A DNA stretch of 42,526 nucleotides from Selenomonas sp. AE3005 (GTDB lineage: Bacteria > Bacillota > Negativicutes > Selenomonadales > Selenomonadaceae), in assembly GCF_000686945.1 (NCBI RefSeq), contig NZ_KK366040.1:272405-314930 (forward strand), given 5' to 3'. A model generated the notes under the pieces. That model ran no database searches, was not told the origin of the DNA, and saw only the letters and a list, made by a program, of their open reading frames with translations. The translations under genes and the position numbers were made by a program. Below are positions 4,933 to 19,732 of this stretch, piece by piece (position 1 is the first letter of the stretch; each line of letters opens with the position of its first letter).

Positions 4933-5591
4933 TGGAGATTAAGGTTATCAAGAATATTTTAGGGGAAAATGACAGATTAGCCGCAGAAAATCAGGCTATG
5001 TTTCAGGATAAAAAGGTGTTTGTACTGAATTTCATGGGTTCGCCGGGGGCTGGCAAGACTTCGGTGCTCGAAAAGACCATGGAACGGCTGAAGGATAAAA
5101 TCAAGATGGCGGTTATCGAGGGCGACCTCTTTACGAGCAAGGACGCTGAGCGAATTGATAAGTATGGTGTGCCGGTAATTCAGATTAACACAGCCGGGGG
5201 CTGCCATCTGGACGCCAATATGGTGCAGAAAACCGTGAAGGAAATGAATCTGGACGAGCTGGATCTGCTGGTGGTGGAAAATGTGGGCAATCTCGTGTGT
5301 CCGGCGGAGTTCCCCGTAGGGGAAGATGCCCGGGCAGTGGTGCTGTCGGTCACGGAAGGTGATGACAAGCCTTTGAAATATCCGCTGATGTTCAAGGAAA
5401 GTGAGATTGCGCTTATCAATAAGGTGGATTTGGCACCTTATTGTAATTTCAATATGGATTCGGCCAAGCAGGATATCACGAGTCTGCACCCTGGCATTGA
5501 GGTGCTGGAGGTTTCCTGCACCAAGGGTGATGGCCTTGACCACTGGTGTGACTGGCTGCTGCAAAAGGTGGCGGCGAAAAAGGGGAAGTAA
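4932..5591 (+). CDS. hypB: Hydrogenase nickel incorporation GTPase HypB (lacks N-terminal CxxCGC)
   Basis: HypB is the GTPase that powers nickel transfer to the hydrogenase large subunit with HypA. The 219-residue protein has the P-loop GSPGAGKTS (36-44), the GTP-specificity motif NKVD (163-166) and the G-domain metal site residues Cys91-His92 (GGCHLDA) and Cys123 (NLVCPAEF). It starts directly at the dimer and G domain: both the N-terminal CxxCGC nickel motif and the His-rich linker of other HypB proteins are absent. The ATG at 4932 overlaps the hypA stop, so the short N-terminus is not an artefact of start choice. The missing motif occurs on the separate protein at 4235. The protease gene follows 2 bases downstream. 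Confidence 0.97.
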   Translation: MEIKVIKNILGENDRLAAENQAMFQDKKVFVLNFMGSPGAGKTSVLEKTMERLKDKIKMAVIEGDLFTSKDAERIDKYGVPVIQINTAGGCHLDANMVQKTVKEMNLDELDLLVVENVGNLVCPAEFPVGEDARAVVLSVTEGDDKPLKYPLMFKESEIALINKVDLAPYCNFNMDSAKQDITSLHPGIEVLEVSCTKGDGLDHWCDWLLQKVAAKKGK

Positions 5592-6184: not shown

Positions 6185-6190
6185 TGCTTG

Positions 6191-6361
6191 GGGCGGCGGT
6201 GGTATTGTGCTTTCGCTTAGACTGTCAGCTAAAAGTATTTTTGCCTTGTGTCCGTAAAATGCCTAAACTCGCTGCGCTCAGACAGTAGGCATTTTGCGGA
6301 CGGCAAAAATACTTTCTTAACGCTGACAGTCAAACGCTGCAGCCCAATATCACCGCCGCCC
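6191..6361. repeat. Long intergenic hairpin element, copy A
   Basis: This 171-base imperfect palindrome begins 7 bases after the protease stop. Outer arms GGGCGGCGGTGGTATTG (6191-6207) and CAATATCACCGCCGCCC (6345-6361) pair with one wobble. Middle arms GACTGTCAGC (6220-6229) and its complement (from 6322) continue into AAAGTATTTTTGCC pairing, with an asymmetric bulge (TTAA on the right side). The inner stem 6250-6264 pairs with 6287-6301. The apical loop 6265-6286 begins AAACTCGCTGCGCTCAGACA. Copies B and C share the loop and the bulge but not the arm sequences. Confidence 0.85.
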
Positions 6362-6450
6362 TGCGGCGCGTCAAATGATATTTTTTTACGTTGAGTAGTC
6401 AGCAAAAGCCTTTCCGCTAAGAAACGAATTAGTTGTTAGGAGGTAATACT

Positions 6451-8813: not shown

Positions 8814-9010
8814 GCCTCGGGGCGGTGGCAGTTGGTTGGCTGCGCTGAGAGGCCGGGCTAAAATAATTTTTTGCTATTTATATAACTGGAAAAGCAAAAA
8901 CTCGCTGCGCTCAGACAGTATGCTTTTCCAGTTATTTTTGTGGTTAGCAAAAAATTATTTCTTCACGCCCGTCCTCTTACGCTCCGCCACCCAACTGCCA
9001 CCGCCCCTCG
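8814..9010. repeat. Long intergenic hairpin element, copy B
   Basis: This is a 197-base imperfect palindrome just after hypE. Outer arms centred on GGGCGGTGGCAGTTGG pair across the element (about 8819-8835 with 8990-9006). A middle stem AATAATTTTTTGC (from 8861) pairs with GCAAAAAATTATT (8947-8959), with the same kind of asymmetric bulge as copy A. The inner stem 8882-8896 pairs perfectly with 8921-8935. The 22-base loop core at 8898-8919 is identical to that of copy A. Two short open frames in this region (8812-9096 and 8940-9125) are products of the palindrome, not genes. Confidence 0.85.
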
Positions 9011-19315: not shown

Positions 19316-19334
19316 GTTTAATACGGTTGGTGTG

Positions 19335-19355
19335 GTGCGTAGTGCGTAGTGCGTG
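19335..19355. repeat. Short tandem repeat GTGCGTA
   Basis: Three consecutive 7-base units (GTGCGTA, GTGCGTA, GTGCGTG) lie just before hairpin element C. A copy-number-variable site is possible. Confidence 0.7.
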
Positions 19356-19360
19356 GTGCT

Positions 19361-19566
19361 AAGGCGGCGCGGTCAGGGAGCTTTCCCCACTTCGCTGTGC
19401 CAGCCGGCTAAAATAAAATTTTGCCTTTTAATTAAGCATCTAAACGGGCTTAAACTCGCTGGGCTCAGACAACAGCCCTGTTTAGATGAGGCTATGGTGG
19501 GCAAAATTTTATTTCTTAACGCCGGCCGGCAAAAGCTGCGCGGGGAAAACTCCCTGACCGCGCCTT
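19361..19566. repeat. Long intergenic hairpin element, copy C
   Basis: This is a 206-base imperfect palindrome between the PTS and hydrolase genes. Outer arms AAGGCGGCGCGGTCAGGG (from 19361) pair with CCCTGACCGCGCCTT (19552-19566). A middle GCCGGC plus ATAAAATTTTGCC stem pairs with 19501-19526, with the asymmetric bulge of copies A and B (right side TTTCTTAACGC). The inner stem 19439-19450 pairs with 19474-19486. The loop core at 19452-19473 differs from copies A and B at three of 22 positions. The open frame at 19353-19706 over this region is not a gene. Confidence 0.85.
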
Positions 19567-19586
19567 GGGCCAGTGGCCACTGGCCC
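19567..19586. repeat. 20-base perfect palindrome
   Basis: GGGCCAGTGGCCACTGGCCC is a perfect palindrome immediately after hairpin element C and 36 bases before the -10 box of the hydrolase gene. It may be an operator or an end of the repeat element. A second perfect palindrome, GCGGCCTAGGCCGC, follows at 19670-19683. Confidence 0.7.
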
Positions 19587-19621
19587 TCGCGCTGGTGTAT
19601 TTATCTCTTAAACAAATATGC

Positions 19622-19627
19622 TATAAT
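19622..19627 (+). promoter_or_regulatory. -10 box for the sucrose-6-phosphate hydrolase gene
   Basis: TATAAT sits inside the inverted repeat TGCTAT-AATA-ATAGCA, about 106 bases before the start codon. The -35 region is poor. A regulator binding the repeat would cover the -10 box. Confidence 0.45.
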
Positions 19628-19732
19628 AATAGCAATAGTTTTATTGGTAAGCAAAAGGCGCAAGTCTGAGCGGCCTAGGCCGCGCCAATTATTTCGAACA
19701 GATTAAGCGTACTATAAAGGAAGGTGACAATA

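Follow-up and report, generated by a model that had tools for sequence, protein, structure and literature searches.

REPs are extragenic sequences of 20-40 bp that lie mostly downstream of genes, have inverted neighbours and occur in several phyla (PMC3733652, PMC8266576). GTAG REPs are held to be mobilised by RAYTs acting on a single-strand hairpin, and no known transposase is given for CGTC REPs (PMC3733652, PMC8266576). The element described here, which occurs three times in the 42,526-nucleotide stretch of the Selenomonas sp. AE3005 genome that we analysed (the window), resembles REPs in its extragenic position, its placement downstream of genes and its inverted doublets, a likeness that is weaker in Sedimenticola. 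It is, however, several times longer, at 170-210 bp (171-206 bp for the hairpins of the window, 207 bp for the Sedimenticola insertions), and it has nested helices and a near-fixed loop of 20 bases. GTAG REPs differ further in that their companion RAYT (Y1_Tnp) was not found in several carriers of the element. An unpaired tag, GTAG or CGTC, marks one end of the REPs named after it.

IS66 (ISBst12-type) elements have GTAAC ends and 8-bp duplications. Both features recur in the Sedimenticola copies, but no clear loop was seen near the IS66 genes examined, and most other lineages fail the corresponding end test. In the attC sites of integrons, certain unpaired bases are conserved while the stems vary freely, and one strand is active when folded; our element likewise has conserved unpaired bases, varying stems and one folding strand, although its conserved part is the apical loop and no integrase link was found. 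Promoters of the phage N4 virion RNA polymerase are short single-strand hairpins that form on one strand and end in a GNA-type loop. The element also carries a GNA-type loop on one strand, but the N4 promoters are small and belong to one phage type, whereas the element is chromosomal and its loop is rare in viral contigs (six stretches). No description of the loop or the element was found in the openly licensed literature, which is weak evidence of novelty. We consider the element to be probably, though far from certainly, a non-autonomous mobile DNA hairpin of the REP or foldback kind, about 170-210 bp long and present singly or as inverted doublets.

The first-pass annotation had proposed three hairpins with a common apical loop and a common asymmetric junction; positions, loop and junction were all confirmed. 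The first hairpin (6191-6361), which separates hypC from a gene for a HyaD/HybD-type hydrogenase maturation protease, is inside an insertion at 6189..6435 whose edges were placed by eye and are uncertain by a few bases. Its apical loop is at 6265..6284 on the minus strand, which reads TGTCTGAGCGCAGCGAGTTT with GCGCAGC at 6271-6277; on the plus strand, the left side of its junction, GC-TAAAA, is at 6228..6234 and the right side, TTTCTTAACGC, at 6313..6323. The second (8814..9010) is downstream of hypE and has its loop at 8898..8917 on the minus strand (GCGCAGC at 8904-8910), with GC-TAAAA at 8857..8863 and TTTCTTCACGC at 8958..8968, both on the plus strand. The third (19361-19566) sits between the genes for a sucrose PTS transporter and a sucrose-6-phosphate hydrolase, inside an insertion of about 398 bp (19318..19715, edges by eye); its junction reads GC-TAAAA at 19408..19414 and TTTCTTAACGC at 19512..19522 on the plus strand, and its loop, at 19452..19471 on the minus strand, carries one change (CTGGGC), so that the GNA triplet is lost in this copy. 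The 20-base loop core thus occurs three times in the window, once with one change, and in none of 100 shuffles. The arms of each hairpin pair with one another, as had been claimed: the outer arms are 89-96% complementary, and the folding z-scores of copies 1, 2 and 3 are -13.1, -14.1 and -9.9, with no shuffle folding equally well. A perfect 20-bp palindrome, GGGCCAGTGGCCACTGGCCC, abuts the third hairpin at 19567-19586, within the copy 3 insertion.

What had been described as a family of three is larger, as the same genome carries at least 13 copies: 10 loops within two mismatches, every one inside a long hairpin, and three further copies read in loci L451, L452 and L453. A relaxed loop pattern was positive in 21 of 22 genomes of the genus (reversed-pattern control, 0), with as many as 61 copies in G019, 47 in G018 and 31 in G009; since a loop variant is present in 21 of the 22, the idea of all-or-none presence or a clade split within the genus was dropped. 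One high-copy loop variant, AAACGCGCTTCGCTTGRAC, was seen at loci L439-L448 and among the G018 copies listed, and another repeat (of the CTTCCCCT...GGGG...GGATG type) adjoins several copies (L440, L441, L447, L455).

Beyond the genus, a scan for exact AAACTCGCTNCGCTCARACA with one genome per species returned at least 116 stretches, and those among the matches listed fall in Bacteroidota, Pseudomonadota, Bacillota, Fusobacteriota, desulfo-bacteria, a Magasanikbacterium and others. Because an exact scan fixes the loop, it says nothing of how strongly the loop is conserved, but it does reveal the same loop borne by very different arms. Cross-phylum analyses of neighbouring genes, ends, junction, placement and strand used 80 of the 116 loci (L040-L119), and the remaining 36 (L120-L155) served as a held-out check. 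Arm-to-arm pairing exceeded the 99th percentile of mispaired arms at 76 of the 119 cross-phylum sites with enough flank and did not at the other 43, and TTAACG was found on the right side of the junction at 18 of 87 cross-phylum sites against 1.7 expected. Loop copies numbered 1 to 64 per genome in the 17 genomes searched, and E. coli genomes gave no loop match at E up to 10. Carriage by phages or plasmids was rejected, as the loop is rare in all such sources: beside the few viral contig stretches, five plasmid records matched, three of them judged real, and of 31 phage records, one among those listed had a 22-base match and the others listed were short partial matches.

The arms had been thought unrelated between copies, a view that does not hold. 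In blastn searches, copy 3 aligns with other copies along stretches of about 100-210 bases that are 66-80% identical; its arms score a mean of 38 against non-orthologous arms and 14 against shuffled arms, and the means against non-orthologous arms for all three window copies are 34-42 (the shuffle control covers copy 3). On this sequence comparison, the arms of different copies are diverged relatives. Among the copies listed, those of one genome have similar arms in Flavobacterium and Sedimenticola and, in part, in Ralstonia. In 193 orthologous pairs within the genus whose flank identity is 0.7 or higher, the arms (0.88 and 0.84) have diverged about as much as the flanks (0.89), so that arm evolution is on the whole not unusually fast, and change is locally in blocks, for example in helix 2 at hypC.

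While the sequence of the arms drifts, their pairing is kept, and covariation bears out the earlier suggestion that structure and loop are what is conserved. Comparison of four hypC orthologues gave 96.8% of cells paired and both-sided changes in 15 of 63 pairs, a count that 0 of 500 shuffles reached and that compares with 0-4 when the partner is slid. Across 16 related hairpins, which are not strict orthologues throughout, 44 of 66 pairs have changed on both sides. The loop itself contains a covarying pair, positions 7 and 13, which in 150 listed rows (not independent of one another) is G-C in 116, A-T in 31, G-T in three and A-C in none. When these two positions were left free, all 105 hairpin-context loops at the loci examined had G-C or A-T, 10 loops outside a hairpin context having been set aside (nine G-C, one C-C), and in a second set all 137 loops had one or the other.

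Comparison of orthologous sites points to insertion. Copy 3 is absent from all 21 other genomes of the genus, where the site is a short stretch from stop to next gene, running in most of them through what by eye is a terminator-like hairpin; the AE3005 genome retains the terminator-like hairpin after the stop of the PTS gene and has about 398 extra bases. At the hypC site (copy 1), four of 12 genomes have the hairpin (G003, G011 and G013 among them), five are empty (G005, G006, G010, G016 and G020) and three have other upstream sequence. The hairpin at hypE (copy 2) is present in the AE3005 genome and in G011 and partial in G010, where the inner hairpin is lost and outer stems only are left (L261), as expected of palindrome deletion; in nine other genomes no hairpin was found in the 330 bases after the hypE stop. 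These empty sites, together with target duplications in Sedimenticola, support the earlier proposal of a mobile element. Its second half, that the arms are made from flanking DNA, is not supported, since the empty-site sequence of copy 3 in the 21 genomes is, by eye, unlike the arms. It is thus by genome comparison that we judge the element to be mobile and its structure to be maintained: dispersed copies, empty sites and both-sided arm changes suggest a mobile folded element, as do strand asymmetry, extragenic position and the wide spread of the loop.

The strand asymmetry concerns the strand opposite the one first read, on which the loop is TGTYTGAGCGNAGCGAGTTT and contains GCGNAGC. Extraordinary stability is described for DNA mini-hairpins that combine a GNA or GNNA loop with two or more G-C pairs (PMC4686876). 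The TNC triplet that corresponds to GNA on the first-read strand fits 104 of 137 loops, and 26 of the 33 without it have TNT; copy 3 of the window departs from the mini-hairpin pattern, and among the 150 listed loops the outer pair is A-T in 31 and G-T in three. Three tests favour the opposite strand, a result that fits DNA or RNA of that strand equally. One counted, over distinct contexts, single arm mismatches with three pairs on either side; an A.C mismatch on the first-read strand is a G.T on the opposite strand, so an excess of A.C favours the latter. Counts of A.C to G.T on the first-read strand were 31 to 7 in the cross-phylum loci L040-L119 (p=0.0001), 17 to 2 in Sedimenticola, 11 to 4 in the held-out loci L120-L155 (p=0.12, not significant alone) and 41 to 10 over all 116 loci (p=1.5e-5). 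Selenomonas (35 to 27, p=0.37) and Ralstonia (5 to 2) showed no significant asymmetry, and Flavobacterium gave 0 to 1 from five sites. The second test folded 220-base windows of both strands with DNA parameters, and the opposite strand was more stable at 73 of 85 cross-phylum sites, 72 of 88 Selenomonas sites and 29 of 32 held-out sites, against 61 of 149, 41 of 173 and 28 of 59 control windows, the first two of which lean the other way. In the third, GCGNAGC within the arms was found 60 times on the opposite and five times on the first-read strand in Selenomonas (4.0 expected), 53 and 12 times in the cross-phylum arms (5.7 expected) and 32 times and once in the held-out arms (3.1 expected). 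Counts of 2 to 1 in Ralstonia, 1 to 0 in Flavobacterium and 0 to 1 in Sedimenticola amount to no enrichment in the arms there. We infer that the functional form may be DNA because the GNA loop is of a DNA type, with the 33 of 137 loops and copy 3 as misfits.

A structured RNA of 3' untranslated regions, or one made from the opposite strand, that is selected at the RNA level is an unlikely explanation, which the placement relative to genes would suit. With simple longest-ORF gene calls, the gene to the left was co-directional at 68 of 89 distinct Selenomonas sites (orthologues included), opposite at 20 and unknown at one, and in 65 of the 68 the distance from stop codon to loop was 98-135 nt, meaning that the hairpin begins some 10-20 bases past the stop. 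Such tight placement could reflect a role in the mRNA; the strong covariation of the hypC orthologues and the 16-hairpin set would suit an RNA as well, and the strand asymmetry is also compatible with one transcribed from the opposite strand. However, the folding asymmetry tracks the element and not the gene, as gene orientation differs among lineages: Ralstonia resembles Selenomonas (left gene co-directional at 21 of 32 sites, with looser distances), Flavobacterium is mostly reversed (17 of 20 with a minus-strand right neighbour) and Sedimenticola has no preferred orientation to genes. Rfam gave no match above gathering either in the window or in 18 further loci, and copy 3 sits behind a terminator-like hairpin that, by eye, is kept after the upstream stop. 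The RNA-level role that the first-pass annotation had put forward keeps a modest share of plausibility, and the strand evidence would then favour the strand opposite the one it had read. Weak sub-gathering matches of copy 1 to microRNA families were put down to chance resemblance, copy 1 being a long hairpin. RF03014 (Transposase-1), for which L288 scored 17.5 bits against a gathering threshold of 42.8, was set aside; it was not seen in L053 and exceeded the cut-off in none of 13 genomes.

Quite improbable, in our estimate, is an ordinary DDE-transposon MITE in which the hairpin is passive filler. In its favour, the loop hairpin of Sedimenticola (L330-L359) is part of a MITE family of 207 bp that has GTAACTACTCAC ends and duplicates 8 bp of its target, the insertions ending in GTAACTACTC and GAGTAGTTAC. 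Both ends were found in 23 of 30 distinct copies, and 13 of the 23 have duplications matching at 7 or more of 8 positions (nine exact), whereas mispaired controls gave 0 of 10,000 at 7/8. A stricter test for GTAA/TTAC ends with a duplication passed in 11 of the 30 copies. Support of the same kind comes from an 8/8 duplication at L092, from the inverted ends of one Selenomonas element (L443, TTACAGTTTGCAGG and CCTGCAAACTGTAA) and from IS66-type elements with GTAACTATTCAC ends in Selenomonas G011. The first-pass annotation had argued that a MITE would conserve its arms and had taken loops within one sequence-conserved MITE as grounds against its view. Sedimenticola presents just this case, but among 89 Selenomonas, 32 Ralstonia and 24 Flavobacterium copies the stricter test found no such duplications. 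Across phyla it passed in three of 92 copies, two of them Sedimenticola (L051, L096) and the third L092, although the loop is the same everywhere. Around IS66 and Y1 genes, moreover, we saw three weak loop matches only (3-4 substitutions; L363, L370, L389). The G011 IS66-like elements (L396 978-2455, L399, L406) have no clear loop; one of them is 1478 bp long, and their ends are nearly those of the Sedimenticola MITE.

Bidirectional transcription terminators are a very improbable explanation: position right after stops and between convergent genes would suit them, but copy 3 follows a retained terminator-like hairpin, copy 1 lies between two same-strand hydrogenase maturation genes, and intrinsic termination requires no fixed loop.

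A mobile hairpin of the REP or foldback kind that is non-autonomous would call for an enzyme in trans, and several candidates were rejected. Y1_Tnp was not found in the carriers G005, G010, G011 and G017, nor in six of 15 other carrier genomes, which argues against a RAYT/Y1 transposase as the mover. The IS66 transposase was not found in six of 13 carrier genomes, and with no clear loop near IS66 genes, it was rejected as a universal mover. Two gene families only recur beside the 80 cross-phylum loci, in four and three loci, and both were judged by eye to be housekeeping. Two tandem tyrosine recombinase genes (L288 3140-4839) adjoin an Aureibacter loop at 5001; they were rejected as a partner, being found beside no other locus compared.

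In the mechanism that we envisage for the mobile hairpin, the strand complementary to the one first read would fold into a long hairpin with a GNA-type mini-hairpin at its tip, and an enzyme in trans might recognise this folded single strand, or a cruciform, through the loop plus the bulge and then insert or copy the folded element. The sequence of the arms could drift freely, with pairing kept by selection on the fold, by replication in which one arm serves as template for the other, or by both. A bolder reading, which we offer tentatively, is that these hairpins form a third, cross-phylum REP-like superfamily that moves as a folded single strand, is recognised at its GNA loop by a putative enzyme and has arms that renew themselves by arm-to-arm copying. 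A 20-base loop found across phyla on drifting paired arms implies a widespread trans-acting recogniser, for which no named candidate was found. The conserved loop is a direct search target for such an enzyme, and the elements are natural long palindromes in which arm correction could be measured.

Inverted doublets are frequent where copies lie close together. In 32 of 36 neighbouring cases with loops less than 450 bp apart, a plus copy is followed by a minus copy; in G018, 28 of 47 copies are in such pairs, 11 of 14 of which are spaced by about 267-275 bp. Copies also lean toward the same orientation within a replichore in G017 (8 of 8) and G010 (10 of 11), as judged from contig position with the origin not located and confounded with gene direction. 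In other phyla, a short hairpin of the GTTACTTTTTCTTGACAAAAAGTAAC type lies to the left of the long hairpin (L041, L048, L052, L067, L068, L287, L310-L329). Its loop is complementary to the bases that follow, a possible pseudoknot whose sequence varies (CTTGAT/ATCAAG, TCGCC/GGCGA).
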